This document shows positions 15,415 through 35,196 of a stretch of DNA of 64,000 nucleotides, in pieces. Below the pieces are notes generated by a model, which ran no database searches, was not told the origin of the DNA, and saw only the letters and a list, made by a program, of their open reading frames with translations. This DNA is from Deferrisoma camini S3R1. Lineage in GTDB: Bacteria > Desulfobacterota > Deferrisomatia > Deferrisomatales > Deferrisomataceae. The stretch is from positions 2,257,014 through 2,321,013 of the forward strand of contig NZ_JAFN01000001.1 in NCBI RefSeq assembly GCF_000526155.1, in the 5' to 3' direction. The stretch's first letter is position 1, and every line of letters starts with the position of its first letter. The translations under genes were made by a program, and so were the position numbers.

Positions 15415-15792
15415 TCAGGGGTTACGGGAAAGGGGCGGCCACACCCAGAGGACCTCTTCCCTCAGCACGCGAGCGAACCGACCGCCACGTCGACCGACGG
15501 CCTTCCACTCGGCCTCTGTGTACACCAAAAGATCTACGGGCACCGGCAGAACTTCAGTGCTCCAGGAAAGGCACCGGCGCTCGAACGGTTCCCGGGAGGC
15601 CCGCACCACCGCCACCAGGTCCAGATCGCTCCCGGGCCCCCAATCCCCCCGAACGTAGGATCCGAAGCACCCCAGCCGCACCAGCTCCGGGTGTCGGGCG
15701 GCCTCGTCCCGTACCCACCGGTCGAGTGCCGTGAGCACCTCCTCAGGCCGAGGCCATCTGAGCACGGGCGAACGCAACGATCTCACGGGCAT
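15415..15792 (-). CDS. MNT-type minimal nucleotidyltransferase
   Basis: 125 residues from ATG 15792; GTG 15765 is an alternative that overlaps the HEPN gene less. The catalytic motif GSYVRGDWGPGSDLDL fits GSX10DXD of the pol-beta superfamily. VDLLVY supplies the third acidic strand. Such proteins paired with HEPN partners act as antitoxins by AMPylating the toxin. The HEPN gene lies just upstream on the same strand and overlaps. It is unusually long at the C-terminus (WKAVGRRGGRFARVL) but remains in family range. Confidence 0.8.
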   Translation of the reverse strand: MPVRSLRSPVLRWPRPEEVLTALDRWVRDEAARHPELVRLGCFGSYVRGDWGPGSDLDLVAVVRASREPFERRCLSWSTEVLPVPVDLLVYTEAEWKAVGRRGGRFARVLREEVLWVWPPLSRNP

Positions 15793-16132
15793 AGTCCACC
15801 GCCGGGCCGCTGTGGAGCGGGCCGTAGTGTTCCGCCGGCGCCCCGGCCGGATGGCCGTTGGGATACCGGGTCGGAATGTAGTAGCCGTCGAGCACCTTTG
15901 CCTTCTGCACCAGGTCGTCCGGCACGTCCGTCGGGAGCTCCTTGAGCAACCGTGCCACCACGTGCCCCCACGCATCCTGGCCGCACCACAGGTGCAAGGC
16001 CTTCACGGCCTTTTCCGCGGCCTGCTGGGCCACGAAACAGGCCCACTCGTGGCGCTCCATCCGGGCGGCCTGCACCGCCATCTCCAGATCCAGCTCGGCC
16101 TGGGTCAACCAATCCTCAGAGCGGTTCGGCAT
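15743..16132 (-). CDS. HEPN-domain protein (toxin partner)
   Basis: 129 residues. WLTQAELDLEMAVQAARMERHEWACFVAQQAAEKAVKAL is the classic HEPN helix pair (PF05168). GHVVARLLKELP, in the position of the R/H catalytic region, follows. HEPN proteins of this kind are ribonuclease toxins neutralised by a neighbouring nucleotidyltransferase; here that gene begins within this one. The catalytic Arg is less clear than in the HepT at 17948-18379. Confidence 0.8.
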   Translation of the reverse strand: MPNRSEDWLTQAELDLEMAVQAARMERHEWACFVAQQAAEKAVKALHLWCGQDAWGHVVARLLKELPTDVPDDLVQKAKVLDGYYIPTRYPNGHPAGAPAEHYGPLHSGPAVDYAREIVAFARAQMASA

Positions 16133-16141
16133 TCTTGCCCC

Positions 16142-16543
16142 TCAGGCCCCACACCCCTGTTCCGCGAGATTCCGCAACCGCCGCACCAACTCTGCTGCGC
16201 GCGGCAGCCACGGCCGAACGTCCTCTACCGGGAAACGGACCAAATCGGCGTAATCCCCCCTCTGCCGGCTGTCGAAGAGCTGGTCATAGAACTGTCCGAA
16301 CGCCACTGGCAGCAAACCGGGTCGCACAAATTCGCGGTGCAACAACGAACGTATTCCCGAGTGCTTTGGGCTGCTGAATCCCTTCGCCAGAAGCGCCGCC
16401 GAGGCCGCATAGAATACCGCGTAGTACAGCCGATTCACCGCCGAGGTTCCGTAGCCCGCCCCCAAAAGAAGCTCGGCTTCCTCTAGCGCCTCACTCGAGC
16501 GTTCCAACCTGTACCTGACCAGTGCCTCGACTTCGGGGCTCAT
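16142..16543 (-). CDS. HEPN-domain protein of a second MNT/HEPN pair
   Basis: 133 residues from the ATG at 16543, which overlaps the upstream nucleotidyltransferase stop by 4 bases. A longer frame to 16609 would enter that gene. VRYRLERSSEALEEAELLL and GTSAVNRLYYAVFYAASAALLAKGF are the HEPN core. HSGIRSLLHREFV is the conserved post-core loop of this subfamily. It is probably a ribonuclease toxin or an RNA-binding partner of the upstream nucleotidyltransferase. Confidence 0.8.
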   Translation of the reverse strand: MSPEVEALVRYRLERSSEALEEAELLLGAGYGTSAVNRLYYAVFYAASAALLAKGFSSPKHSGIRSLLHREFVRPGLLPVAFGQFYDQLFDSRQRGDYADLVRFPVEDVRPWLPRAAELVRRLRNLAEQGCGA

Positions 16544-16866
16544 ACGATACGGCCCTCTCGCTCCACATTTTGCACGAACGGCATGGCCTGAAAGACGGGG
16601 CTTTCCCACCGCTCACGCGACTCCGCGAACACCGTGATCACGGCACCCGTATCGAGTTCAACCGGGTAAACGGCGGCCCGGATCCGCTGTTCCCTCGCGA
16701 GATCCACCGGTCCTTCCAACAACACGAGCAGGTCGTAATCCGAATCGTCCCTGGCGTCGCCGCGAGCCCTCGACCCGTACAAGACCACCCGTGCCCCGGG
16801 CTCCACGTTCTGGATCAAGGCTTTACACCGGGAGAGAACGGAATCGACAGTCCCCTTTTTGCTCAT
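16540..16866 (-). CDS. MNT-type nucleotidyltransferase (antitoxin)
   Basis: 108 residues. VVLYGSRARGDARDDSDYDLLVLL is the GSX10DXD active site of the minimal nucleotidyltransferase family. The C-terminal VFAESRERWESPVFQ is a conserved feature of these proteins. It forms a 4-base overlap with the HEPN gene downstream. The gene order (MNT then HEPN) is opposite to the pair at 15415-16132. Confidence 0.85.
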   Translation of the reverse strand: MSKKGTVDSVLSRCKALIQNVEPGARVVLYGSRARGDARDDSDYDLLVLLEGPVDLAREQRIRAAVYPVELDTGAVITVFAESRERWESPVFQAMPFVQNVEREGRIV

Positions 16867-16961
16867 CGAAACCCCCTTCTCTCAAAGGGCTTATGTACCG
16901 GGATCACGAGGAGCACCGCGGGAACCGACAGGCTTTCGATGCGGTTCCCCATGCTCGGCCT

Positions 16962-17216
16962 TCAGCGATACACATCGCGCCGGTGCCCCACATGGAGCAC
17001 CACGACGACACCCTGCTCGTCGTCGATCTCGTAGATCACGCGGTAGGACCCGATTCGCACCCTCCACCCATCCCGGCCCACGAGCTTTCGAGCCTGGGTG
17101 GGTCGCGGGTTTTCGGCTAACGCCCGGATGGCGTCCCGCACCGCCTCGTAGCTCTTCGATGGCAACCCGGCGAGTTCCTTCTGGGCGCGACGGAGGATCC
17201 GGAGCCTGTACCTCAC
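16962..17216 (-). CDS. relE: RelE/ParE-family toxin
   Basis: 84 residues. MRYRLRILRRAQKELAGLP is the family's opening strand and helix. LVGRDGWRVRIGSYRVIYEIDDEQGVVVVLHVGHRRDVYR is the diagnostic C-terminal sheet, with the basic catalytic-type residues R, R, H and R. It is a predicted ribosome-dependent mRNA interferase. The start overlaps the antitoxin stop by 4 bases. Confidence 0.9.
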   Translation of the reverse strand: MRYRLRILRRAQKELAGLPSKSYEAVRDAIRALAENPRPTQARKLVGRDGWRVRIGSYRVIYEIDDEQGVVVVLHVGHRRDVYR

Positions 17217-17419
17217 CCCCCCCGTCTCTCCTCGATCTCTTGCACTGCCGCCTCGAAATCCACGGTCTCGTCCCCCGATGCTTTCGCGGCATCGTAAGCG
17301 CGGATGCTTTCCAGCTCCTCTAGAGCCTCCAGCATCCGGCGGTAGTCACCCAGCGAAACGATCACGGCAACCGGATTCCCTTGCTCGTCCGTCACATACC
17401 GCGCCGGTTTCCCACCCAT
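17213..17419 (-). CDS. RelB/Phd-type antitoxin
   Basis: 68 residues from the ATG at 17419, chosen because GGAGGT lies a few bases upstream. The longer open frame to 17497 has no such site. RYVTDEQGNPVAVIVSLGDYRRMLEALEEL is the Phd/YefM-like N-terminal fold. The acidic C-terminus (ETVDFEAAVQEIEE) is the toxin-binding tail. It probably represses its own promoter, which would lie in the short divergent gap shared with the MntA-like gene at 17518. Confidence 0.85.
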   Translation of the reverse strand: MGGKPARYVTDEQGNPVAVIVSLGDYRRMLEALEELESIRAYDAAKASGDETVDFEAAVQEIEERRGG

Positions 17420-17517
17420 GCCACACCTCCCGCCCCCGCCCTTGGTTCTCTGCCGAGCAGCCGTATTATACTGCCTACCGAGCACGACTGACACCACACG
17501 TCCAGGGAGTTCTCCAC

Positions 17518-21267: not shown

Positions 21268-23526
21268 CTATCGAAGCCGCTCTTGCCGATCCACGAGCAC
21301 AGCGTGGGTGAGCATGTGCCGGGCCGTGCGGAAACTCAACACGGGACGATCGTCGGTGTTGAGGGGAACCTCCTCGGTCAGGTCACGCGCGGTTCGAGGC
21401 CCTGCGTAGGCCTGTCGGTTCGCTGCGGGGAGGCGCGAGGAAGGGGCCCGGCCCCGGTCGGGGGCGAGCAGCAGCAGATCCCCCCGCTGAGGCACCCAAA
21501 GGGACCATTCGGGGAAAACGCGGGCAAAGGTGGCCTCGAATATCGCCAAGTCCCTGGGGGCCGTTCCGTATGTCTGGAACCACTGGACCATCAGCCCGCC
21601 CTCCGCCAGTCGGTCCCGGCACATCGTCAGGAACTCTCGGGTGAACAAGGCCCAGGAAAACCCCACCCACGGGTTCGAGGGCTGGGAGACAATAATATCG
21701 AAAGGCTCCCGGCCCGAAGCAAGGAAGTGGCGAGCGTCATCAACGACCAGGGTGAGCCGTGGGTCCTGAACGGCCCGGGCGTTCACGTCTCTAAACCACG
21801 GAGCCGCCCGTACGACCTCGGGCGAGATCTCTACGCACACCACCTCCCGGACCGGGTAGCGCAAGATCTGGTCAACCGTCTGACCACTTCCCCATCCTAT
21901 GACGAGCACCCGCTTCGCATCGGGCTTCAGTGACATGGGCAACCGGGCCAGCATCCGCTGGGTTGGGCTATCGAGCAACGTGTTGGAAGCCGGCTTTCCA
22001 TCGATGATCAGATAGCGTTGCGCCCCCTGCTCCACCACCAGTACCGTGCCTATTGGCCCCTCGATCACGGCCAACAGCTGTGAGCGTCGCCCGGCTGCCA
22101 CGGCTTGCATTGGGGGAGAGAAGGCAAGATTTTTTGCGTATCTCGGGGCCGCCCAGTACACTCCGGAGTGCACCGTCAAGGGCGATGGCGACGGGGCGGC
22201 GACCAGCAGCAGTCCCGCCGACACCGCCAACACCAGGAACGGCATCGGTACGCGCCATCGGAGCTTCGGCAACAACGCCGCACCGACCAAGACATACCCC
22301 CCCGCCATCGTCCGGTACGCGCCATCCACGCCCACCTGCCCTACGAGTAGGCTGTTGACGATCACCGGCCCAAACACCGCCCCCAGGGTGTTCGCCGCCA
22401 CCAACACACCGGTCTGGTGCCCTCCCGGGCCACCGACGGGAGCTGACATGGCGAGCACCAGGGGGAAAAGAGCCCCCAGCGCAACGGCCCCCGGGTACAA
22501 CACCACCATGGCACACAAGCCCTGGGCCGTCAGCAGATCGATCCATTGCACCCCTGCCGGAGGCAAACGATCGGCCAGCCACACCACGGTCCAGGGAAGC
22601 TGGGGTAAGGTCCACGGGAGAAGCGCCAGCAGCCCGGCCGCTGAGGCCGCGATGGAGGAAGACCACCGCGAGGCATTGGGGGCCACACGCGCGGCCAGCA
22701 GGCTTCCGGTACCCAGACCCAACAAAAAAGGCACCACCGTGCCGGCCAAAGCGTAGATGCTGAGCCCCATGATGGGGGTCAAAGCTCTCACGGCTGCCGT
22801 CTGCAAGCCAAGCCCCAAGAACCCCAGAGAAAAAGCTATGACGATCCACCGTACGGCGGTTCCCGCGTGGCGAGCCGAGGCTGGCGGGGATGAGGGCTGC
22901 CCCCGCCGCACAGCTCCGCCCGTGCCGAGGAACAGACCCGCCAACACGACGGAGGCCGCTGCGGACCAGCCGGCACAGGCACGTGCGCCCAGGAGTTCCA
23001 GCCCCAAGAATGAGACGAGCACGGTGCCGGTGGCCGCACCCAGGATGTTGAGGCCGTAGAGCAAGGCCAAGTGAGGTGCCCGCCGGCCGCCGCTGGGCAG
23101 CACAGCGGCCAGCACAGGAAACATGCCGCCCACTGGTGCGGCCACGAGAACCATCACGACAAACGCCATGACCCGGCGGGCGGCCGGAGAGAACCACGGG
23201 GGCGCGGGGACGACGGGGAAGAACAACATCAAAGCCAACCCCGTTACCCCCACCAGCACGTGGAGGGCAGCGAGAGCCCGGCCGGGCCTCCTGGCCCCAT
23301 ACCAGCCCCACCGCCCCCCCAACCATGTGCCGGCCGCGAGCCCCCCCATGTACCCCGACAGCAGAACAACAACCGCTGGTGCGGATGCGCCCACGACCAG
23401 CTCCAGGGCCCGGAACCAGAGGATCTCCAGGCTCAGGGCCACCACGCCGGAAGCGAAGTAGAGCGCCCCAGCAATCCGGATGTCCAACAACGCTCGCCCC
23501 GACCACAGCCCCCAAGCGGGGCGCAT
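21268..23526 (-). CDS. Membrane-fused spermidine-synthase-like protein (second copy)
   Basis: 752 residues from ATG 23526, which has GAGG six bases upstream; a TTG at 23562 is the longest frame. About eleven hydrophobic segments precede a soluble domain. RVLVIGWGSGQTVDQIL is the nucleotide loop, VVCVEISPEVVRAAPWF the second strand, and DIIVSQPSNPWVGFSWALFTREFL the post-motif characteristic of spermidine synthases. Domain order differs from 1034-3460, which has membrane segments on both sides. This is the 'fused MFS/spermidine synthase' family; the true substrate is unknown. It is last in the long minus-strand block, directly downstream of the 20-residue peptide gene. Confidence 0.85.
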   Translation of the reverse strand: MRPAWGLWSGRALLDIRIAGALYFASGVVALSLEILWFRALELVVGASAPAVVVLLSGYMGGLAAGTWLGGRWGWYGARRPGRALAALHVLVGVTGLALMLFFPVVPAPPWFSPAARRVMAFVVMVLVAAPVGGMFPVLAAVLPSGGRRAPHLALLYGLNILGAATGTVLVSFLGLELLGARACAGWSAAASVVLAGLFLGTGGAVRRGQPSSPPASARHAGTAVRWIVIAFSLGFLGLGLQTAAVRALTPIMGLSIYALAGTVVPFLLGLGTGSLLAARVAPNASRWSSSIAASAAGLLALLPWTLPQLPWTVVWLADRLPPAGVQWIDLLTAQGLCAMVVLYPGAVALGALFPLVLAMSAPVGGPGGHQTGVLVAANTLGAVFGPVIVNSLLVGQVGVDGAYRTMAGGYVLVGAALLPKLRWRVPMPFLVLAVSAGLLLVAAPSPSPLTVHSGVYWAAPRYAKNLAFSPPMQAVAAGRRSQLLAVIEGPIGTVLVVEQGAQRYLIIDGKPASNTLLDSPTQRMLARLPMSLKPDAKRVLVIGWGSGQTVDQILRYPVREVVCVEISPEVVRAAPWFRDVNARAVQDPRLTLVVDDARHFLASGREPFDIIVSQPSNPWVGFSWALFTREFLTMCRDRLAEGGLMVQWFQTYGTAPRDLAIFEATFARVFPEWSLWVPQRGDLLLLAPDRGRAPSSRLPAANRQAYAGPRTARDLTEEVPLNTDDRPVLSFRTARHMLTHAVLVDRQERLR

Positions 23527-23743
23527 GGTCGACCTCGCGGAGTGAGTAGATGTAGGAAGCAAGGGTGTCCGTCCCCGGTCCTGCTTCGCCCTCGGGAGGA
23601 AGTACCGGTTGCATCACACGCGGGTCAAACGGGCCCGTGCACCGCCCGGACGAGATTCCCGCCCGTTGCCCCCGGTTCCGTGGGGGGGCGCCGAGGCGCG
23701 GCCCCTCCGTCCGTCCATTTGGGGAGCGCACGGGAGTCCAACC

Positions 23744-23778
23744 GGAAAGAGGGCCGGCAAACCGCCGACCCTCTTTCC
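23744..23778 (-). terminator. Long hairpin 20 bases after the peptide stop
   Basis: GGAAAGAGGG pairs with CCCTCTTTCC (outer stem), with CGGC/GCCG inside and a short GGTTT loop. It is a very stable structure. No T-run follows, so it may be a Rho-independent terminator of reduced strength, an mRNA-stabilising stem, or a processing site. Confidence 0.55.
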
Positions 23779-23798
23779 GAACCTCGTGCCGTGCTTCT

Positions 23799-23861
23799 TC
23801 AGCAGGGATGCACGCTGGAGGTCCCCACGATCTTGGGCTTTACGTAGGTCGTCCTCTTCAT
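23799..23861 (-). CDS. 20-residue peptide gene, candidate precursor or signalling peptide
   Basis: The ATG at 23861 has an excellent ribosome-binding site (AAGGAG, six bases before it). It encodes a 20-residue peptide that starts MKRTTYVKPK and ends SSVHPC before TGA. It lies 70 bases downstream of the 1064-residue Big protein gene and upstream of the methyltransferase-like gene, all on the minus strand. A strong hairpin follows the stop. The Lys/Arg/Tyr/Lys-Pro leader and Cys-terminal end resemble very short modified-peptide precursors, but I do not recognise the family. No maturase (radical SAM or other) is in the window. It could be a real micro-gene or chance; the ribosome site favours a real gene. 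Confidence 0.5.
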   Translation of the reverse strand: MKRTTYVKPKIVGTSSVHPC

Positions 23862-23884
23862 GGCTCGCTCCTTGGTCTGAGACC

Positions 23885-23953
23885 AGTGACAAGTGACCGG
23901 TGACGCGTGGCGGGTGCCCGCGCGCCCCGTCCTAACGTCCTAACGTCCCAACA
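23885..23953. repeat. GTCACCC-type and GTCCTAAC-type repeats
   Basis: GTGACNN units (23885-23910) lie in the leader of the 20-residue peptide gene. CGTCCTAACGTCCTAACGTCCCAAC (23930-23953) lies across the stop of the Big protein gene. The second class recurs only at 35164-35196, at the equivalent place in the paralogue. Confidence 0.8.
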
Positions 23954-26900
23954 TACTCGTTTTTCCACACGTCCTCGTCGATCTCCACGTACCCCAAGGT
24001 GTCGCCGAGCTCCACCCGGTCCCGGCGGTGCTTCACCTCTCGGACGAACACCCCCTTCTCCGGCGACGCGAGCGTCCAGGTGGTCTTGCGGCCCTCCAGC
24101 ACCACCAAGGGCTGGCCCTTCTCCATCTCGTCCCCCGGCTCTACCAGCCACTCCGCCACCCGGATGCGGTCCCGCTCCTGCCGCTCCTCGAGCCGCGGCA
24201 CGAACACCGTGCCGTACACCCGCCGGAGTTCCTCCTCCGTGGGCGCCCGACTCGTGTGCCGCGCCTCCACGATCACCGTGCCCGTTCGCCGACCCGCCCG
24301 GAACGTGACTACGGCCTCGCCGTTCCGGTCCGTTTGCGCACTCTTCGGCGTGACGGATCCCGATCCTTCCAGAACCGTGAAGAGGACCGGCACCTCGATG
24401 TTCGGGTTGTCGTGGATGTCCGTCACCCGCACCGAGAGCTCCGCCGTGCTCCGCCCGTCCGCCGGTAGCCGCGTGGTCGAGGCAACCAGATCGATCTTGG
24501 CCGGGGCGTCGGCCCGGAGCTCGATCTGGAGCGCCTGGGTCACGCCCCAGTCCTCGTTCGCCGCCGTGATCGTAACGAACCCGGCCACCGTGCCCGCCCG
24601 GTACTCGGCCTCGGCGATGCCCCGCTCGTCCGTGCGCCCACCCCGCAGCACCCGCAGCCGGCCGTTCTCGTTCCCCAGCGCAAACCGAACCCGCGCCCCC
24701 TCGATCGGGTTCCCCTCGAGGTCCACGAGCTTCGCCTGGATCCGGCTCGTCGAGCGGCCGTCCGCCGTGAGCCAGGCCGGTTCCGCCGACATCGTGAGCA
24801 CGGCCCGGTCCACGAGCCCTCTCCGGGCCCGGGGCACAAGCTCGATCGCCACCGTGGAGGCCACGTAGGTGTTGAGCCACCCCGCGCCCACGTCCCCCGT
24901 GGTCAGGTCCTTGGCGACGATCAGCGCGGTCTTCGCCGCAAACCCCGCCGTGTAGGTCGCGGCGACCTCCCCAAAGGCGTCCGTCACCCCGCCCCACTTC
25001 ACCTCCACGTCGTCCACGTCGTCGATCCTGGCCTCCCGATCCTCGAGACGGCCCCCGCCCACCACCCCCGTGTACTCCTCTGTCGTAGACAGGGTAAGCA
25101 CCAGCTCGTGGCCGCTTACCGGGTCGCCGTTGGCGTTCTCGGCCTTTACCGCGAGCCGCGTGCTGCTCTTTTGGTCTGCCGGAAGGAGCGTGTCCCGGGC
25201 CGTCACCACGAGCCGCACCCGGGTGTCGAAGCTCACCGGCCGACCCGCCGCCTGGGTGGACTCGTTCCCGGCGTCGTCCGAGAGGTGCACCACCACCGGC
25301 ACGTCGGTTCCCTGGTCGTCCCAGCCCACGGTGTAGGTGCCCCGATAGGTTCCTGGCTCCACCTCGGTCATCGGGATGCCCTGGGCCACCCCTTTGATGT
25401 CGAAACTCGCGTATCCCCCGGGCTCACCTTCCATGGTGACCGTAAGGACGTCGCCGGCCACCAGCTTGCCGCTGAAGCCCACCGCTGCAAAGGAATCGTT
25501 CTCGGCCGAAACGATAACCGGGGGGGTAGTATCGTTCAAGGCGTCCAAGCCCACTACGGCCACCTCCGGCCCGGCCCGGTCGGCTGACCCAAAAGCGTCC
25601 GCCACGTGGACCACTACCCGGTGAAGGGTTTTGGTCGGGCCCACGTCCGCGTCGGTCACGGTGTAGGTGCCCGTGTATCGGCCCGTGCGCCCCGCCTCCG
25701 TCAGGGGAAGACCCGCCGCCAGGGTGCCGAGATCCGCCGTCACGGTGGCCCCGCTCTGGCCCGTCACCGTGATCGTTACGGTCTCGCCGGGCTTCACCGG
25801 TTTCCCGAAGGGCTCCACCGTGACCCCGGTGATGGCCGGGCCTTCGCCCGCAACCGCCTCGGCCGAAACGATGTCGCTCGCCTCGCTTCGGTTCCCCGCC
25901 CGGTCCACCGCCACCACGGCGTAACGGTATTCCAGCCCCGCCACCACGGCGGTGTCCGTGAACGAGAGCTTTCGGGTGCTCTCGTAGGGATCGGCGGACA
26001 GATCCGGGTCGGCCCCCTCACCCCGGTAGATCTCGTAGTGGTCCACGTCGGCCGAAGGGCTCGCCTCCCACGTGACCTCGATCTCCCCAGGCCACGGTGA
26101 CGTGGCCAGAATCCGCCCCGCCGGCACAGGGTCCGGAGCCGTGGTGTCGATCGTGATTGTCGGGCCTTCTAGGGTCGCCGCCTCGCCCGTGGCCGGATCC
26201 GTGAGGGTGCCCGTGAGCGCGAAGTCGCCGTTCGCACCCTCCGGCACGGCCACCTTGCCCACGTACACCCCGTCGTCCACCTCGGTCATGGCCACGTTCT
26301 CGGCCACCCCAGCAATCGAAAACGCCGCCGCCTTGTCCGGCGCCCCCCGCAGGGTCACGCTGATCTCCTGGTCTGCACCGTAGAGGGATTTCTCGGCTCC
26401 CAAAGCGACTACGGCAGCTCCGGTCCCCGACCCCAGGTCCTCCCCGAAGGAGTCCCCCACCCGGAAGTCCACCAGGGATGATGCCAGCTGCGACCAGGCT
26501 CCCCGCGGGAGCTCCCGATCCGTCTCTGCTCCGATCACCAGATACCGGGCCTGTCGAAGCAATGCGATGAAGTTTTCCATGTTGCCCCCCGTGCCCGCCC
26601 CAAGATCCACTCCGTTCACGTTCAAGGAGATCTGCCCTCTCCTCCACCTCAGCACCACCCTCACCCGGTCCCCGACCCCAACCGGCTCTGGCAACGGTAC
26701 GAAAGCGTCCGGAAGGATCCTAGCCCCGAAATCTTCCAGCCGCAGCTCCGGCACCGGTTCCCACCAGTGGACCTCGAACACCAGCATCCGGTGCCACGAG
26801 GCATCGGCCAAACTGAACAGCGCCTCGGTCTCAGACTCGTTCCCCCGGTAGAAGGTGAGTGCGATCACGCCTTCGTCCGGGTTCAGCGGTGTCTTCTCCA

Positions 26901-27126
26901 GATCGAAGTACAGGTACTTTCCGCCCCTTGTCACGTCTCCCCCCCGCGGGGCGCGCCACGTCTTCCCGGGGGCCCCGAAGTCCCCCTGGGGACCACCTTG
27001 AGACGCACCATCAAACCGGACCGAGGCATTGCGGGCGTCCAGCACCACCCGCGCCCCAGCCGACCCAGCTGCGGCACAAATCACCGCAGCTGCCGTAAGA
27101 CCCGCGATCCATCGGACGGTCTTCAT
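23932..27126 (-). CDS. Giant secreted LamG/FN3/Big protein with C-terminal lipoyl-like domain
   Basis: 1064 residues; ATG preceded by GGAGG. Signal MKTVRWIAGLTAAAVICAAAGSAGA. Residues ~28-235 look like a concanavalin-type lectin/LamG domain. A Big-like sandwich (~240-330) and an FN3 domain (~335-430, EIEVTWEASPSADVDHYEIYRGEG) follow. Two extracellular sandwiches lie at ~435-650. Invasin-type Big_1 repeats (~655-965) carry the marker ADGRSTSRIQAKLVDLEGNPIEGARVRF. The last ~65 residues (WLVEPGDEMEKGQPLVVLEGRKTTWTL...VELGDTLGYVE) match a biotinyl/lipoyl domain, with Lys1014 in the modified position. It is encoded 22 bases downstream of the largest cytochrome. It is probably a surface scaffold; the role of the lipoyl-like domain is unknown. 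Confidence 0.85.
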   Translation of the reverse strand: MKTVRWIAGLTAAAVICAAAGSAGARVVLDARNASVRFDGASQGGPQGDFGAPGKTWRAPRGGDVTRGGKYLYFDLEKTPLNPDEGVIALTFYRGNESETEALFSLADASWHRMLVFEVHWWEPVPELRLEDFGARILPDAFVPLPEPVGVGDRVRVVLRWRRGQISLNVNGVDLGAGTGGNMENFIALLRQARYLVIGAETDRELPRGAWSQLASSLVDFRVGDSFGEDLGSGTGAAVVALGAEKSLYGADQEISVTLRGAPDKAAAFSIAGVAENVAMTEVDDGVYVGKVAVPEGANGDFALTGTLTDPATGEAATLEGPTITIDTTAPDPVPAGRILATSPWPGEIEVTWEASPSADVDHYEIYRGEGADPDLSADPYESTRKLSFTDTAVVAGLEYRYAVVAVDRAGNRSEASDIVSAEAVAGEGPAITGVTVEPFGKPVKPGETVTITVTGQSGATVTADLGTLAAGLPLTEAGRTGRYTGTYTVTDADVGPTKTLHRVVVHVADAFGSADRAGPEVAVVGLDALNDTTPPVIVSAENDSFAAVGFSGKLVAGDVLTVTMEGEPGGYASFDIKGVAQGIPMTEVEPGTYRGTYTVGWDDQGTDVPVVVHLSDDAGNESTQAAGRPVSFDTRVRLVVTARDTLLPADQKSSTRLAVKAENANGDPVSGHELVLTLSTTEEYTGVVGGGRLEDREARIDDVDDVEVKWGGVTDAFGEVAATYTAGFAAKTALIVAKDLTTGDVGAGWLNTYVASTVAIELVPRARRGLVDRAVLTMSAEPAWLTADGRSTSRIQAKLVDLEGNPIEGARVRFALGNENGRLRVLRGGRTDERGIAEAEYRAGTVAGFVTITAANEDWGVTQALQIELRADAPAKIDLVASTTRLPADGRSTAELSVRVTDIHDNPNIEVPVLFTVLEGSGSVTPKSAQTDRNGEAVVTFRAGRRTGTVIVEARHTSRAPTEEELRRVYGTVFVPRLEERQERDRIRVAEWLVEPGDEMEKGQPLVVLEGRKTTWTLASPEKGVFVREVKHRRDRVELGDTLGYVEIDEDVWKNEYVGTLGR

Positions 27127-27148: not shown

Positions 27149-30100
27149 TCACCAGGGGGTTACTTTGTTCCACCCCGGCCCGTACTTCGTTCCGGAGCCG
27201 CCCGCGCCAGTCGCCTCTGCGGGCCCCCGACGGTGACAGTTTTGGGACGTCGTCCAGTTTGCCAACCGTTCACCGTTTGTCAGCGATCCCGAGTTCGTAT
27301 CTATCTGATAGAGGTCCTGCCAAGTGTTGTGATTGGTGTCCAGGCAGTTGGTGATCATCAGCTTCGGCAGCCGGGACGCGTGGGGGTTGTGGCACTTTCC
27401 GCAGTTGAACGTATGGAACTGGATCTGGAGAGTGGTATCGTCCACCGTCAACTCGACCGTGCCTGTCGCGATCTTGGGCGTGCTTCCGCCGGCGCTCGTG
27501 CCCCACTCGAAACTCTTGTACGCATAAGCCCGGGAGGCGGGGTTGGTGGGAGGGTTGTAGCCGTAGCCCCACGAACCCCTGTACGAGTACCCCCTGCCGG
27601 TCTCCTCGGCCAGCCCCATGGACTGATCGCTTCCGCTTCCCGCTGGCTTCGCATTGCCACCGCGCCACGTGTTCCGGAAGATGTTCACCGCCTGCGCCCC
27701 TGTTCCCCCGATCACCGCGTTGGAGTGGCCGTTGGTTCCCACCCAAAGGCCCTCGCCCGTGGTGTAGTCCATGTTGTCTACGTCCGTGCCGTGGCAAAGG
27801 GTACACAGACCCGCTGTGGTCGAGAGGGTCTCCCCGTTGTTCGGGTTGCCGCTGTTCTGGTCGATCCAGTACCCCCCCACCCCGTTGTTGTTGTTCGGAT
27901 CCGCGCTGCCGCGGGGAACAAAACCGTAGCGGTTCGTCCCGGTCCAGTTTCCGTCCATGCTGCTCTGGGGGGCCCCGTCCTCGTTGTACGGGTTCCCCTT
28001 CCAAGTACCTCGCAGATACGGCTGCCCCGAAACGGTATCGCCGCTCGCCTTGTTCAGGTCGTGCACGTCATGGCAGTAGCTACACCGGATGTCCGCCACG
28101 TTGTCCACGGTCTCACTCATCCCTCCGGTCGCGTAGGGAGTGCCCGACACAGCGGCCGTGCCGTTCGTAAAATTCACCGAGTGGGTGGACTGGATGGCTG
28201 CCGTCTTGTATGAGAATTCGGGCACCGCGCTGGTCCAGGTCGCGATGGTCCAATTGGAAACATCCAGGCTTCCGTAGTCGTAGGAGAGCCCTCCGGTGTT
28301 GGCGTTGTTGTTCACCCCCCACTCCGACACCCCGTTGCTATCGTGGCAGTTCCAGCAGATCTCCGCCTCGGTGGTGCCGCTCGTGGCGCTACCCCCCAGG
28401 TGGATCCCCCCGTGAGAGGTGTAATCAATACCGAGCTGGGTTTGCATATTGAGGTTTTGACCGCTGCCATCGCTGCGGTTGTTCCAGCTCGTGGGGGGAA
28501 GAGGAATGTCAACCCCCCCAGCCGCCCCGACATGCCCCTTGTGACACGCTGAGCAGTCCCCGGCCGCCCATGTGGTGCCAGCCCCATCTGCATCCGTGTG
28601 GGAGCTCGTCGCGTTTACTTGCGGCGCGCCGCTCGCGCCTCCGTCGTCGTGGCACGAGCCGCAGTTGACGCTCGGCACGTCCCCGGAAACCGTCTCCAAC
28701 GTCCAAGCGGTTGTGACGAAGGAGTGCTTGCCCGGTACGGCGCCGTCGTAGGCCGCGTGGCACGCGCTGCACCCAGACAGGCCAGCCCCGTCGCGAGCGA
28801 ACGAGGTCCCATTGGAGTTCAGAGTGATCTGGGCGTTTCCATGGTTCGAGGTCTCTCCAGAGGCCTGGTTCCAGTCACCCGTCCCGCTCGTGAACATGTA
28901 CCCTGTGCTTGCCTCCAAGGCGTGACAGTCCTTGCACTCGTAGTTCGTACCCGTGGCATGGGCCCTCGGACCGCTGTCGGTGCGATGCGTCACGCCTGCG
29001 TTCCACCCGTTCGTCCAGTCGCCGTGGCACCCGGCACACTCGGCCCCCGTGGTTGCCGCCGCATTCTCGTGCCACAGACGCGACCAACTCTCACCCACGG
29101 TCTGTTCCAGGTGACACCCTGTCAGGCTGGGAGCGCAGGTGGGGGGGGTACCGTCGGTAAACCCCACGTCCGCCGCGAACTGGATGGTGGGTGCACTCAG
29201 GTCGGCCGTGCCGTCCATGTGGGCGCTCGACGGCGTCGTCGTGTGGCACGTGGTGCAGTCGGCCGTGCTCGTCCCGCCGTTGTACGGGAAGCTGTCGTCG
29301 TGCTGCACTCCGGATACCGTGGGGACCACATCGTGAAGCCCCGTGGTGGGATTGGCGAACCCGCCCGCATGGCCTCCCGGCGTGTGACACATGGTGCAGG
29401 TACTGGTGCCGGTATCGTACCAGCCGAAGGTATTGTCCGTGGTGAGCTTGTTGTTGTGGCAGTCCACCGTGGCACAAGTATCGGCCACGTTGTCGTACGC
29501 CGCATCCGTGTCGGTGCTTTCCGTCCCCACCACGATCGTGGTCCAGATCGGGTCCACGTACCCGGTCACGTTGGCGGTGCCGTTGTTGTGCAGCGTCGCA
29601 AACGAAGAGCCCCGCGGATCCTCGTGGCAGTAAGCGCACATCTCCTTCTGCTGCGCATCGGTATAGGGGCTGGCATACCCCAGCTTCCCGGCGATACGGG
29701 AGATGTGCTTCGCGTGGCGGCCCGCCCGGTCCGGGGTGGCCGTGCCGTCGGGCCAGTAGGTTCCGGCCGCGGGATCGCCGTGACACCCGGTGCATGACGG
29801 GCTGAACGCCTTATTGTGCGGGTGGCAGTCCGAGCAATCGCCCGGGTTTCCGGTGCCGCCGGGGTGGCTGCCACCGGATGCGCTGGTGTCGTCCACAAAT
29901 ACGTAGGGCGTGTCCGTGCCGGGCGTGCCCTCGTGGCACTCCTGGCAGATGCTCGAGTACGGGGCGTCGCTGTCCGCGTAGCTCGTGCCCGCCGTGCTCT
30001 GGCCGGTTGTATCGTCGGTAAACGCAAGTCCTGTCTGCTCGGTGGGCTCCGCCGGGGGCGGGCCGGCAGGCAGGCCGAACTGCGCCTTGTCGTAAAGCTC

Positions 30101-33100
30101 GCGCTGGACCATGGACAGATTCGAGCCGTCTCCGTGGGGATCGTGGCAGTTCACGCACTCGGGCGCGAAGCTCCACGTGTACTTTGGCGTGTACCCCGAG
30201 TTGGACATCTCTGCAGACGAATGGGTCTTGAACGTGGAGATGTCGAGCCCCGTGGCCGGCCCGATCGTGCCCGAGGCGTGGCACCCCGTGCCGGTGTACG
30301 AGCACGAGAACTGCACCCCGGCCGTACCGGTGTCCTGATCCTTCAGCCGGAACGGGTTGGTCCCGTCCAAGGTGTGGGGTTGGAGGGCCTGGGTATAGGA
30401 GTTGTGGGGCACGGTGCTGTCGTGACACGCCGCACAGGCCAGCCCCTTGGCGCCGTGGCCGGAAGAGTTGTAGTCGGTCTGGTTGATCTTGGACTGGGCC
30501 CCGGTGTTGTCCCAAAGGAAGTCGTTCACGTCCGCCGTGGCGGCCGCCCCGCCGGTGGTCGCGTGGCACACGTCGCAGGTGAAGTTGCCGTTGGTGGCCA
30601 CGTCGTAGTCCCACGCGACGTTGCTGCGGCCGCCGTGGCAGTTGGCCGTGGAGCACGTGCCGTTCACCCCCCCCGTCCCGGCGGTGAACGTGAAGTACCC
30701 CAAATCCGCCGTGGTGAGCGCCGGGTCCACGTCCACGTTGTACTGCATGTTCACGTGGGTCGCCGGGTTGAAGCCGCCGCCCTTGCCCTTGACCGTGGTG
30801 TAGTGGCATGCGCCGCAGTCCGAGTAGAGGTTCTCGCCCACGTGCTTCTCGTGCTTGTTCCCCTTAGGCGTGCCGTCGATGTCCTGGAGATCGGCGTAAT
30901 CCGGCCTGGACCCGTGGCACTTGGAGCACGAGCCGTTCGGGTTGTCCCAGGTGATCGGGGTCCAGGTGCCGCTCACCCCCTTCTGGCGCGTGTAGGTGAA
31001 CTCGCCGAACGGGGGCACCCGGTCGTTCCCCTGGCTGTGACAGTAGGTCTGGGTGCAGGCCCCATAGCCCGACCCCACAGCGGTGTCGCCGTTGTACGTG
31101 CTGTTCGCGTCGAGCCGCGGGTCGCTCGTGTCGAACGCCACTTCTGCCGCGCCGTTGGCATGCGTGGGGTAGTTGAGCGTGGACCCGTCCGGCGTGGTGG
31201 CCACGTGGCAGAGGTTACAGCCGTACCCGTACTCGTTGGCCGAGGTGTGCTTCAGATGGGCATTGCTCCGGGGCGGCACCGCAGCCGTGGCTCCGTGACA
31301 CGTGCCGCAGGCTCCGGTGCTGGCGTTGTTCCATTCGGGCGTGGTGTCGGATCCTCCGTTGTTCGCTGGGAACGTGGCTGCATCGTCCCCGTGACAGTAC
31401 AGCGTGGTACAGGTTCCGTAGGTGGTGGTGTCGTTGGGCCGACTTCCCTTGGCCAAGCTGTAGGTCCCGTTGGGGTTCAAGGCATCGAACACCACGTCCA
31501 CGTTGTTCCGGATGGTGCCCGGGCTCGTGCTCATCAGGTTGTTGAACTCGGTGGCGTTGGTCACGCCGGTCTCGTTGTGGGTGCCGGCGTTCTGATGGCA
31601 CTTGCCGCAATCGAACCCTGCAGTGGTCACGTGCTTGGCGTGGGCGTTGGTGGCCGGCGGGAACCCGTGGCAGCCGTCACACTGGAGCGGCATGAACCCG
31701 TCGGCCGTGCCGCCGGCGTCCGAGTCGTAGTCGTGGGAATGACACCCGGTGCAGTCGTTACCCTGCTCGTTGGAGGTGTAGTCGTTCAGCTCGATGTGGT
31801 TGCCGTCGGTGTTCGTCATGGCCGTGGAGCTGCCCGGACGGTTGGCGTCGATGTGGCAGGCCACGCACATGTTGTCGTTCTGAGTCAGCCCGTCGTCGAA
31901 GGAGTTCGTCCCCGTCTTCGCCTCGAACACCACTGAGACCGTTGTGGTGCGGTCGGCACCCGTTGTGGGCTCCGAGTAGTTCTTGATCTCCACAGACGGC
32001 CGGATCATGTAGATGTTCGCGTTGCCGCCCGTGTTCTGGGTCAGGCCGTGGGGCTCGTGGCAGGCCTCGCAGTTGTAGGCGAAGCTCTCCGCGTTGGCAT
32101 CGTGGGTCGTGCCCGAGGTGAACGAAGTGTTCAGATTGCCGTGGCTCGACACCTGGGCCTGGGCGGGCGTGCCGACCGTGGTCTGGTGGCACGCCCCGCA
32201 CAGCCCGCTCACGGTCGACCCGGTGGCCACCGTGTTCACCGTGGCCCGGAGACGGTTGCCCGCAAAGGTGGTGTCGTCGGCGTTGTTCACGTGGGTCGAG
32301 GCGGTGTCGTGGCAGTCGTCGCAGACCTTTGCGGCGGCTGGATTGCCTGACCCAGCGTACGTACCGCTCGCCAGGTTGTGCCCGGTGACCTCGGCCCCGT
32401 AGGTGGTGTCGTCGCCCAGCACATCGGGGGCCGTGCGGCCCGTGCCGTCGGCGAGCGAGGTCCCCGGGTCGGTCCCGTTGTGGCAGTTCACGCACGGGAT
32501 CGTGTTCGTCGTGGCCCAGTAGCTCTTGGCCAGATCCCGGCCCACCTGACCGTTGATCGAGGCCGTGGAGTGGCAGTTGTCGCAAGCGCTCGTCGCGGCG
32601 AGCTGCACGTCGCCCACGAAATCCACGTTGCCATCCACATGGGTGGGGCTGGGCGTGGTCGCCCCCGGTCCCAGTGCCCCCTCGCTCCCAGAACCGTGGC
32701 AGGGGGAACAGTCCGCCGAGAAGTCAGCGATGCTGTTGTGGCACGAGCTGCAGCCCGGAGCCGTGCCCCCGTGCCCTTCCACGATCGCCGGCCCGTGAGC
32801 CGCGGTGTAGTGGGTCGGATGGTTGTTCGAAGTAACCGCCTTCTCCGGAACCGATGCGTTCGCTGGATCCCCGAACACCCCGTGGCAGGTACCGCAGTCC
32901 CCGGTGGTATCGTCCGTCCACACCGGCGACTGGGTGACCCCTCCGTTGTTGAGCGTGGCGCCATGGCAATACACATTGGTGCAGGTCGAGCTCGCGTTCG
33001 TGAACGTTTCGGTGCCGGTGACCGGAAGCCCCGCCTGGCTGAGGTCGAAGTTCACGAGCGCAGGATCGGTGAGGCTTCCCTTGGCATGGTCGGGGCTGTA

Positions 33101-35074
33101 GGCATTGTTCGTGGAGTCCTCGCCCGCATGGCAGGTGCGGCACGGGTAGTTCTTCTGGGGCGCCGTGGGGTTGTCGTGGGCGTAGTGGTTGCCGCCGTCC
33201 GGATTGGAGGAAAGCGAGTTCAGGTGACAAGCCTCGCACTCCTCCCCGGTGTCGCCGATCTCCCAAGTCCCACCGTTGGCCGGATACCCGTTCCGGGTCG
33301 TCTCGGTGCTGGCCGTGGTCTTGTATGCGTCGATCCACACGGGCGCGGATCGCGTGGTCTGGCCCCCGTCCCCCTTCCCCGTGATCCCGATCGTAGGGTC
33401 GTCAGGGTTGTGGCAGGTCAGGTTCGAGCACGTGTTCGTGCCGGTGTCGTAGGTGCCGTCCGGGTTGAACGCAGGGTTGAACGCCACCTCCACGTTGGCC
33501 GAGGGCACGGCGGTGCCCTGGTCCGAGCCCCACCCGCTCTGGTTGTGGTTGTTCCCGTAGTGGCACTCGGAACACCCGTAGCCCATCTTGTTCACGTGGG
33601 TGTCGTGCACCCCCACGGCGTCCGGGTTGTCGGGGTGGGTGTCCGACGCGCTCGGAGGAAACCCATGGCACGTGTCGCAGGCCTGGGCCGCGGCAAAATT
33701 CGTAGACGAGCTGTGCCCGTCGTGGCAGCCGGTGCCCGAGGCGCAGGTGGTGGAGGTCAGCGGCCCCCCCAGGTGGTTGGTGCCCCCCGCGCCGTTGTCG
33801 TTGAGGCTCTGGCCCGAGGGAATGGCACTGTGGCACGCGGTGTTGTCACAGGTTCCGTTCGTTGCCCCGAAAAGGTACCAGTCGCCGTTGTATTTGACGT
33901 CGTCGTCGGGGAGCTGGGTGTCCTCCCCTGCCAGCATACGGCGGATCATGGTGTCGTTCTGGAAGGTGGAGTCCGCGGCCGTAGTGCCGTGCTGGTCGTG
34001 GCAGTCGAGGCATCCGGCGCTGCGGCCGGTGCCGGCGTCACCCCCGTCTGCCGGAGTGGGCGTGTGGGGAGCGTGGCCGGCGTGGCAGTGCCGGCAGTTG
34101 GAGTAGAAGTTGGTGCCGAAGGAGGACGTGCCGGCCGTGGTGTCCTCGGCCAGGGTGGCCTTGAGCCGGGGCGCGGGATCGAACACCCCGTCCCCGTCCA
34201 CGTCGTGGGACAGCTCGTGGCAGGTGTCGCATCCGACCCCCATTTTTCCGTGGCCGTACAGGCCGTAGTTGTCCGTCAGCCCGCCGTTCTCGTCCTTGGT
34301 GTGACACACGTCGCACTCGGTGAGATTGACGGTCTGATTGGTGGCCGGCTGGCCCGAGTGGCCCGAGGTGTTCTGGAGCACCAGAAGACGCTCCCCGTCC
34401 ACCGAGTTGTGCTTGCCGTGGCACCGGGTGCAGTAGATCGGATTCTCGGCCACGGCCACGTCGTTCAGGGTGATCTTCGTATTGTCGGCCCCGTGGGCCG
34501 GGGGCGCGGAGTAGCCGTTGAGGGTCGTGCCGGTGGCGCTGTGGCAGTTGGTGTTCTGGCAGGTCTTGGTGGAGAGCTCCGCGTCGGAGAGGTCCGCAGG
34601 GTTTCCGATCAGGGTCGTGTTCACGGCCAGGGTGGTCTGGGACGCGTCCACCCCGTGGATGTTGGCGTTTCCGGCCCCGTCCGCGGTCATGCCGGACACG
34701 GTGTGGCAGTCGAGGCAGTCGAAGGCCGTGGAGTCCTGGGCGAACGTGCCCTTGGTCACGTCCACCGGGTGCTTCGACAACGACGTGGCGTCGAAGTCGT
34801 GGTACACGCCCTTCATCCGGTCGCGGTTCTGCACGGATACGGCGTTCTCCTCGTGGCAGAACAGGCACCGAACCGTGGGATCGGTGTCGGTGATGCCCAG
34901 ATCGATGGTCTTCTGCGATGCCCTCAACAGATGGGTCCCGGCGACCATCTTCCCCGCGCTCACGGCATGGCAGTCGTAGCACAGGGCCCCCGGCGGATAA
35001 TGGGTGGCCAGGGCCGGCCCGGCCCACAGCATCCACCCCACCACGATGGCTCCGACCCAAAATCTTCGACTCAT
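27149..35074 (-). CDS. Giant multihaem c-type cytochrome (about 57 haem sites)
   Basis: 2641 residues; ATG with GAGG eight bases upstream. Signal MSRRFWVGAIVVGWMLWAGPALA; the mature start is THYPPG. By eye I count about 46 CxxCH sites, eight CX4CH (for example CQNTNCH, CDNTACH, CTTLYCH), one CX5CH (CASGTGCH) and two CX6CH (CSYTGTGCH, CAPSLTGCH). The CX4CH sites usually precede a CxxCH by ~30-40 residues, then NAHxKH. This is the 'CxxxxCH...CXXCH' unit defined in Geobacter sulfurreducens cytochromes. The role is predicted extracellular or outer-membrane electron transfer. N-terminal residues 1-~420 are closely similar to 38829-43823. The last ~100 residues have a CLDTNHN...NCHRR pair with no plausible haem spacing. 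Confidence 0.93.
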   Translation of the reverse strand: MSRRFWVGAIVVGWMLWAGPALATHYPPGALCYDCHAVSAGKMVAGTHLLRASQKTIDLGITDTDPTVRCLFCHEENAVSVQNRDRMKGVYHDFDATSLSKHPVDVTKGTFAQDSTAFDCLDCHTVSGMTADGAGNANIHGVDASQTTLAVNTTLIGNPADLSDAELSTKTCQNTNCHSATGTTLNGYSAPPAHGADNTKITLNDVAVAENPIYCTRCHGKHNSVDGERLLVLQNTSGHSGQPATNQTVNLTECDVCHTKDENGGLTDNYGLYGHGKMGVGCDTCHELSHDVDGDGVFDPAPRLKATLAEDTTAGTSSFGTNFYSNCRHCHAGHAPHTPTPADGGDAGTGRSAGCLDCHDQHGTTAADSTFQNDTMIRRMLAGEDTQLPDDDVKYNGDWYLFGATNGTCDNTACHSAIPSGQSLNDNGAGGTNHLGGPLTSTTCASGTGCHDGHSSSTNFAAAQACDTCHGFPPSASDTHPDNPDAVGVHDTHVNKMGYGCSECHYGNNHNQSGWGSDQGTAVPSANVEVAFNPAFNPDGTYDTGTNTCSNLTCHNPDDPTIGITGKGDGGQTTRSAPVWIDAYKTTASTETTRNGYPANGGTWEIGDTGEECEACHLNSLSSNPDGGNHYAHDNPTAPQKNYPCRTCHAGEDSTNNAYSPDHAKGSLTDPALVNFDLSQAGLPVTGTETFTNASSTCTNVYCHGATLNNGGVTQSPVWTDDTTGDCGTCHGVFGDPANASVPEKAVTSNNHPTHYTAAHGPAIVEGHGGTAPGCSSCHNSIADFSADCSPCHGSGSEGALGPGATTPSPTHVDGNVDFVGDVQLAATSACDNCHSTASINGQVGRDLAKSYWATTNTIPCVNCHNGTDPGTSLADGTGRTAPDVLGDDTTYGAEVTGHNLASGTYAGSGNPAAAKVCDDCHDTASTHVNNADDTTFAGNRLRATVNTVATGSTVSGLCGACHQTTVGTPAQAQVSSHGNLNTSFTSGTTHDANAESFAYNCEACHEPHGLTQNTGGNANIYMIRPSVEIKNYSEPTTGADRTTTVSVVFEAKTGTNSFDDGLTQNDNMCVACHIDANRPGSSTAMTNTDGNHIELNDYTSNEQGNDCTGCHSHDYDSDAGGTADGFMPLQCDGCHGFPPATNAHAKHVTTAGFDCGKCHQNAGTHNETGVTNATEFNNLMSTSPGTIRNNVDVVFDALNPNGTYSLAKGSRPNDTTTYGTCTTLYCHGDDAATFPANNGGSDTTPEWNNASTGACGTCHGATAAVPPRSNAHLKHTSANEYGYGCNLCHVATTPDGSTLNYPTHANGAAEVAFDTSDPRLDANSTYNGDTAVGSGYGACTQTYCHSQGNDRVPPFGEFTYTRQKGVSGTWTPITWDNPNGSCSKCHGSRPDYADLQDIDGTPKGNKHEKHVGENLYSDCGACHYTTVKGKGGGFNPATHVNMQYNVDVDPALTTADLGYFTFTAGTGGVNGTCSTANCHGGRSNVAWDYDVATNGNFTCDVCHATTGGAAATADVNDFLWDNTGAQSKINQTDYNSSGHGAKGLACAACHDSTVPHNSYTQALQPHTLDGTNPFRLKDQDTGTAGVQFSCSYTGTGCHASGTIGPATGLDISTFKTHSSAEMSNSGYTPKYTWSFAPECVNCHDPHGDGSNLSMVQRELYDKAQFGLPAGPPPAEPTEQTGLAFTDDTTGQSTAGTSYADSDAPYSSICQECHEGTPGTDTPYVFVDDTSASGGSHPGGTGNPGDCSDCHPHNKAFSPSCTGCHGDPAAGTYWPDGTATPDRAGRHAKHISRIAGKLGYASPYTDAQQKEMCAYCHEDPRGSSFATLHNNGTANVTGYVDPIWTTIVVGTESTDTDAAYDNVADTCATVDCHNNKLTTDNTFGWYDTGTSTCTMCHTPGGHAGGFANPTTGLHDVVPTVSGVQHDDSFPYNGGTSTADCTTCHTTTPSSAHMDGTADLSAPTIQFAADVGFTDGTPPTCAPSLTGCHLEQTVGESWSRLWHENAAATTGAECAGCHGDWTNGWNAGVTHRTDSGPRAHATGTNYECKDCHALEASTGYMFTSGTGDWNQASGETSNHGNAQITLNSNGTSFARDGAGLSGCSACHAAYDGAVPGKHSFVTTAWTLETVSGDVPSVNCGSCHDDGGASGAPQVNATSSHTDADGAGTTWAAGDCSACHKGHVGAAGGVDIPLPPTSWNNRSDGSGQNLNMQTQLGIDYTSHGGIHLGGSATSGTTEAEICWNCHDSNGVSEWGVNNNANTGGLSYDYGSLDVSNWTIATWTSAVPEFSYKTAAIQSTHSVNFTNGTAAVSGTPYATGGMSETVDNVADIRCSYCHDVHDLNKASGDTVSGQPYLRGTWKGNPYNEDGAPQSSMDGNWTGTNRYGFVPRGSADPNNNNGVGGYWIDQNSGNPNNGETLSTTAGLCTLCHGTDVDNMDYTTGEGLWVGTNGHSNAVIGGTGAQAVNIFRNTWRGGNAKPAGSGSDQSMGLAEETGRGYSYRGSWGYGYNPPTNPASRAYAYKSFEWGTSAGGSTPKIATGTVELTVDDTTLQIQFHTFNCGKCHNPHASRLPKLMITNCLDTNHNTWQDLYQIDTNSGSLTNGERLANWTTSQNCHRRGPAEATGAGGSGTKYGPGWNKVTPW

Positions 35075-35097
35075 CGACTCTGCCTCGGTTGGTTGAA

Positions 35098-35196
35098 TCG
35101 GTGACGAGTGATCCGTGACGGGTGACTGGTGATCCGTGACGCGTGACGGGTGACGTTCCCCCGTCCCAACGTCCTAACGTCCCAACGTCCCCACGT
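35098..35196. repeat. GTGAYSS and GTCCYAAC repeat tracts between cytochrome and Big gene
   Basis: 35098-35157 holds GTGACGAGTGATCCGTGACGG-like 7-bp units. 35164-35196 holds CGTCCCAAC/CGTCCTAAC units that cover the stop codon of the second Big protein. The arrangement is the same as at 23885-23953, so it was either duplicated with the gene pair or reinvaded both sites. Confidence 0.8.

Follow-up and report, generated by a model that had tools for sequence, protein, structure and literature searches.

A conserved family of ultrashort HPC peptides as probable substrates of the GeoRSP radical SAM system

The 64,000-nucleotide stretch of the Deferrisoma camini S3R1 genome analysed here (the window) contains an open reading frame of 20 residues behind the gene of a Big protein, and it raises the question whether so short a frame is a gene at all and, if so, what its product serves. 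A sequence-only reading had proposed a micro-gene with a strong ribosome-binding site, and the ORF, its start, its stop and the AAGGAG six bases upstream were all verified; the ATG is at 23861 on the minus strand and the TGA stop occupies 23799-23801 (Table 1). The neighbours named in that reading (cytochrome, Big protein and membrane methyltransferase-like gene) were also as described, all on the minus strand. The long hairpin said to follow the peptide gene was present as well; its 17-bp stem scored z = -3.9 against shuffled sequences and was retained in two congeners. The lack of a T-run sets it apart from a canonical terminator, and it probably marks the 3′ end of the mRNA or separates the peptide gene from the next one. 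An ATG with such a ribosome-binding site occurs in no more than four of the window's ORFs of 10-40 aa, which, taken alone, is mildly suggestive of a gene. No Pfam or NCBIfam model matched the peptide in our model scans, and it carries no signal peptide.

Table 1. Features of the HPC peptide locus and its neighbourhood in the window
Feature	Position	Strand	Basis or remark
HPC peptide gene, 20 aa MKRTTYVKPKIVGTSSVHPC, stop TGA	23799..23861	(-)	ORF reading, family matches
Ribosome-binding site AAGGAG, 6 nt 5′ of ATG	23868..23873	(-)	
Predicted leader motif Y6-x-x-P9-x-I11, predicted binding site for PqqD-like RRE	23829..23846	(-)	invariant Y/F and P
Predicted core G13-TSS-V17-H18-P19-C20, terminal Cys abutting stop	23802..23825	(-)	VHPC-stop in family
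17-bp hairpin 3′ of peptide gene, without T-run	23742..23780	(-)	genus-conserved
Big_1/Invasin-D3 protein with lipoyl-like tail, 70 nt upstream of peptide	23932..27126	(-)	
Giant multiheme cytochrome, 2641 aa, 46 CxxCH, C-terminal GWNKVTPW	27149..35074	(-)	
MFS/spermidine-synthase-like membrane protein, downstream, outside the proposed system	21268..23562	(-)	association genus-limited

The ORF in the window is a real, conserved and previously unannotated micro-gene and a member of a widespread family. Gene callers miss it, as had been anticipated, and its reality follows from family matches and codon-level constraint. The peptide was retained in sister genomes, the point on which the sequence-only reading had staked its claim, with matches in 14 of 59 related genomes (E 2.5e-9 to 1e-3, 1-5 copies per genome), and a whole-genome search returned a second copy in the same genome with 75% identity. 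The family consensus, M-K-K-x(0-2)-[YF]-x-x-P-x-[VI]-x-G-x-x-x-V-H-P-C-stop, describes peptides of 17-20 residues encoded by genes of 51-63 bases. The loci are standalone ORFs amid unrelated flanks, nearly all with a Shine-Dalgarno-like sequence (a 4-5-base word of this kind in 119 of 135), and VHPC followed immediately by the stop forms the C-terminus of nearly all loci that were read. When the GTDB species genomes were scanned with a DNA pattern, at least 118 stretches matched, and the matches listed came almost all from Desulfuromonadales/Geobacter relatives, Deferrisomatales and Nitrospirota. The culturable species Geomobilimonas luticola, Pelotalea chapellei and Geothermobacter hydrogeniphilus are among the carriers. 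Because this pattern contains VHPC by construction, the invariance of the motif rests on the searches performed without a motif filter. An HMM search of 395 genomes required neither the stop nor the exact motif; the strong matches read out from it ended in VHPC-stop with Y/F, P and G conserved upstream, and a single degenerate LHPC copy was the exception among members found in this way. One contig (G007:C69; loci L004, L027) carries three copies within 2 kb, one of them degenerate (GKPKVVGTSSLHPC), which suggests local duplication and decay.

Mean entropies at codon positions 1, 2 and 3 of the family were 0.48, 0.35 and 1.30 bits, and the constraint therefore acts on amino acids. This bears on the idea of a cis-acting translated leader or tail, or another mRNA element, whose coding look would be secondary: the position in a 3′ region and the conserved hairpin behind the window copy would suit such an element, but the entropies, and amino acids conserved in distant genomes with unrelated flanks, leave it hardly any probability. 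The TGA behind the cysteine could be imagined to encode selenocysteine, given that 85 of 138 loci, the window copy among them, end in TGA and that a transporter of the YedE-like 'selenium' family is encoded in the operon described below. However, TAA (51 loci) and TAG (2 loci) occupy the same place in 53 of 138 loci, and the sequence 3′ of the stop is not conserved. Because other stop codons replace it, the TGA is a stop rather than selenocysteine; the conserved in-frame TGA of a selenoprotein was not found, and the probability of a selenopeptide is close to nil.

To what system might the peptide belong? The second copy in the same genome, MKKIPYVKPRIAGTSSVHPC (G000:C1:3098483-3098542), lies directly 3′ of a GeoRSP-type radical SAM gene which is itself preceded by a PqqD-family gene; a search for paralogues beside radical SAM maturases, recommended from the sequence, was thus answered positively. 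The best NCBIfam match of this radical SAM protein was GeoRSP_rSAM (TIGR04303); its 394.5 bits fall short of the curated cut-off of 400 by 5.5, and the next-best family, the mycofactocin maturase, followed 180 bits lower at 213.7. The PqqD-like protein matched best the GeoRSP PqqD chaperone (TIGR04302), with 67.5 bits well under the cut-off of 100. No GeoRSP SPASM gene was present beside this pair, and the sole match to GeoRSP SPASM (TIGR04304) in the genome was the SPASM part of the radical SAM gene itself; the SPASM protein, considered as a marker, did not discriminate in this order. The radical SAM protein scored above 400 in 20 of the 26 enzyme-positive genomes of the phylum sample and in 14 of 14 of Nitrospirota.

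A fuller gene order was seen in Malonomonas (L132), where beta-helix proteins, PhnD-like, TPR, YedE-like and PqqD (100.3 bits) genes are followed by the radical SAM gene (445 bits), the HPC peptide, the SPASM protein and a cysteine-desulfurase-like gene, and the core of this order recurred in many loci. In many Desulfuromonadales the peptide gene is inside the operon, between the radical SAM and SPASM genes (the adjoining SPASM protein matching TIGR04304 with 93.7 bits, cut-off 300). A short peptide gene adjoining or co-occurring with RRE and radical SAM genes is the arrangement of an RRE-dependent radical SAM RiPP precursor. The YedE-like transporters of these operons (e.g. L132:3618-4799, L003:8421-9911) scored below the YedE of non-GeoRSP genomes against the selenium YedE model and look like a distinct, divergent branch. 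Together with the PhnD-like and cysteine-desulfurase-like genes they hint at sulfur or selenium supply; a tight link to selenium was rejected, as full-strength selenium YedE is widespread without GeoRSP and the operon member looks divergent.

The peptide and the enzyme were also found together across genomes. In the sample of 395 genomes of the phylum, peptide and GeoRSP enzyme occurred together in 25; the enzyme stood alone in 1 and the peptide alone in 3, and the other 366 had neither (Fisher p 3.5e-35; the peptide was counted at E < 1e-6, and four matches above 0.02 were excluded). Among 246 Nitrospirota genomes the peptide was detected in 17, comprising all 14 that were enzyme-positive and 3 with peptide only, and a GeoRSP radical SAM gene or fragment was present in 38 of 42 genomes picked solely for the peptide (E <= 1.7e-58). 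In 11 of the 25 genomes with both, the enzyme gene is followed on its own strand by a copy no more than 200 nt away. The exceptions, most of them drafts or MAGs, were one enzyme-positive genome with no detectable peptide (G003, 92% complete) and six peptide-positive genomes of the two phylum samples in which no enzyme was detected. GeoRSP PqqD matches in two peptide-only genomes (G249, G362) were apparent only, with no radical SAM gene seen beside them. A Desulfuromonadales-like HPC peptide locus also occurs on contig JAABXR010000011.1 (L082), filed as a Phycisphaerae MAG, whose genome is without GeoRSP; this contig is probably mis-binned. Shared ancestry could account for part of the co-occurrence. 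From adjacency and co-occurrence we infer that the HPC peptides are very probably ultrashort precursors and the substrates of the GeoRSP system.

The predicted structure of the PqqD-like partner pointed in the same direction. The AlphaFold2 model of the PqqD-like protein (pLDDT 95) had as its nearest solved structures the lasso B1 RREs with leader peptides bound (Z 10.4-10.8), PqqD being also among the matches, and the closest solved relative of the radical SAM enzyme was PqqE. Lasso RREs recognise the leader motif [Y/W]xxPx[L/V/I/F/A] (PMC13381572), and [YF]xxPx[VI] of the HPC peptides has the same spacing, so that an RRE-type partner and a matching leader were found at the level of fold and motif. 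The leader would then be the N-terminal half, and GxxxVHPC would be the core shown to the SPASM radical SAM enzyme. That the modification falls on the C-terminal VHPC is moderately likely; as speculation, thioether chemistry or C-terminal decarboxylation is plausible because of the terminal cysteine and the nearby histidine.

Where the copies away from the enzyme are located was equally instructive. At a distance of 20-220 nt they follow genes for giant multiheme cytochromes or for other proteins, most of them exported. At 136 distinct loci the upstream gene was a radical SAM gene in 28, a multiheme cytochrome in 42, a protein of the window's Big/lipoyl-tail type in 8, an FG-GAP protein in 6, an HD-domain protein in 5 and another ORF in 35, and 12 had no callable upstream neighbour. 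The class of other ORFs holds carboxypeptidase-regulatory-like proteins, propellers and some spurious ORFs, and also the window locus, for which an overlapping false frame was taken as neighbour. Cytochromes upstream of the peptide had 2-51 CxxCH motifs and a median gap of 68 nt, and were the commonest neighbour type, at 42 of the 96 non-radical-SAM loci with a callable neighbour; at about one third of the dispersed loci the neighbour is of another kind or could not be resolved. Since cytochromes make up 2.1% of the proteins in Geobacter genomes (PMC2825233), the excess corresponds to a binomial p of ~3e-44, which is indicative only because loci of one genome are not independent. The peptide-cytochrome link is positional. 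In many of these cytochromes a WNxx[TS]PW motif is conserved at the C-terminus or close to it, beside the last CH motif. A mimicry of the peptide tail GTSSVHPC by the cytochrome tail GWNKVTPW was considered and dropped, as WNxxTPW is often internal and is missing from other client proteins.

In the window, the giant cytochrome (46 CxxCH) comes first, then the Big protein and then the peptide. On the minus strand, the block 23932-48110 is apparently an extracellular electron-transfer locus: a pair of giant multiheme cytochromes, one with 46 CxxCH and the other with 26, is encoded there in one orientation with a pair of near-duplicate Big/Ig proteins that carry lipoyl-like tails and a pair of beta-propeller-like proteins. 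Short repeated units occur in the intergenic gaps of this block, 35075-35180 and 23862-23931 (GTCACC/GTCACT and ACGTTAGGACGTTGGGACG), and translations of ORFs at 15415-17497 on the minus strand resemble, by eye, HEPN/nucleotidyltransferase and RelE/RelB-type toxin-antitoxin pairs. The spermidine-synthase-like gene on the other side of the peptide, which the sequence-only reading had listed among the neighbours, adjoins it in the same genus only, and because of this restriction the proximity is taken as a local accident and the gene is unlikely to be the maturase.

Such tight linkage behind multiheme cytochromes and other exported-type proteins could also be expected of a microprotein that stays unmodified and is an assembly partner or chaperone of the upstream-encoded exported proteins, the radical SAM genes merely occurring in the same hosts. 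This is improbable, as the peptide has no signal peptide, has a copy within the radical SAM operon in many genomes, co-occurs near-perfectly with GeoRSP and carries an RRE-type leader motif. We prefer the GeoRSP precursor reading, which has a high probability as a whole. The messenger of a large exported protein would carry the peptide gene at its end, with a separate ribosome-binding site for its translation. On binding to the PqqD-like RRE chaperone (TIGR04302), the N-terminal YxxPx[V/I] segment of the peptide would dock as a strand. The chaperone would in turn bring GxxxVHPC at the C-terminus to the radical SAM/SPASM enzyme (TIGR04303), and the modification would most likely fall at or near the terminal cysteine. 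The product may then serve the upstream-encoded exported cytochromes or Ig-like proteins as a small cofactor, a metal or redox ligand or a maturation aid. That the modified peptide acts with extracellular electron-transfer proteins has about an even chance. A bolder proposal, which we offer tentatively, is that GeoRSP makes the HPC peptides into a new cofactor or tag for giant extracellular multiheme cytochromes and their Ig-like companions, with a precursor copy at the 3′ end of each client gene; if true, those proteins would depend on this cofactor or tag for their assembly, anchoring or electron transfer.

The peptide had been suggested to be both modified and exported. The first part probably holds, and a paralogue does adjoin a radical SAM gene. 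The second found no support, as the conserved GeoRSP operon revealed nothing that resembles a peptide exporter or a protease for the leader. The same operon bears on a secreted RiPP antibiotic or signalling peptide, with which a short ribosomal peptide having a maturase, an RRE and several copies per genome would agree. Bacteriocin cores diversify, whereas the HPC core is almost invariant across two phyla, and the conserved operon showed no recognisable sensor, immunity gene or exporter with a peptidase domain; a secreted antibiotic or signal is thus very improbable. A redox cofactor of the PQQ/mycofactocin type, in which the modified C-terminal residues are excised as a small diffusible cofactor and the remainder is scaffold, is possible though doubtful. 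It agrees with the mycofactocin maturase as second-best family of the enzyme (213.7 bits), with PqqE as its best solved relative, with hosts that are largely respiratory metal reducers, and with one near-invariant core and an invariant C-terminus in all copies, features described for mycofactocin (PMC3023750); against it, neither a dedicated dehydrogenase family nor a peptidase was seen in the operon, and the partners of the copies are structural, cytochrome or Ig-like genes and not oxidoreductases. This is a sub-case of the GeoRSP precursor reading and not a contradiction of it.

Nothing on GeoRSP peptides or TIGR04302-04304 was found in the literature searched, subscription papers lying outside the search. 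The HPC peptides supply a probable substrate for the orphan GeoRSP radical SAM system from genes that annotation pipelines skip, and they tie it, for the first time in the literature searched, to the giant cytochromes of metal-respiring Desulfuromonadales, Deferrisomatales and Nitrospirota. The function of GeoRSP is now directly testable with one synthetic 20-mer.

Compared with known systems, the geopeptide system (maturase TIGR04280) is likewise a radical SAM peptide system of the same genome, but with another maturase family at other loci. Two full-strength TIGR04280 maturases were found (L032 and L033; G000:C1:1490105 and 1898190), and a 34-aa ORF with a ribosome-binding site, MGEQEIQILEEGKDVREVAASGDCCKTGPQNLRT, just upstream of one of them is a candidate geopeptide; with no HPC peptide near either locus, this maturase was rejected as the partner. 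Leader recognition by lasso B1 proteins of the TbiB1 and FusB1 type is similar in the YxxPx[V/I] motif and is the closest in RRE fold. The HPC core is too short for a lasso ring, and neither the B2 protease nor the C cyclase (macrolactam synthetase) was recognised in the conserved L132 operon by NCBIfam scan or in the nine-protein operon table. Mycofactocin (MftA/MftB/MftC) and PQQ (PqqA/PqqD/PqqE) share with the HPC peptides an RRE and a SPASM radical SAM enzyme acting on a short peptide with a conserved C-terminus. The HPC peptides differ from both in having 17-20 aa, ending in VHPC and being scattered in several copies that follow cytochrome or Ig-like genes, and no redox enzyme partners of the mycofactocin type were seen around them. 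Membership in either system was rejected: the enzyme stays at 213.7 bits against the cut-off of 265 of TIGR03962 and at 119.2 against 381 of the PqqE model TIGR02109, and the peptide has no Glu, whereas the PqqA core is Glu/Tyr. It is in the GeoRSP system (TIGR04302 PqqD family, TIGR04303 radical SAM/SPASM and TIGR04304 SPASM protein) that the same enzymes adjoin or co-occur with the peptide; the substrate peptide, outside the NCBIfam and Pfam models, is what the present analysis proposes to add.
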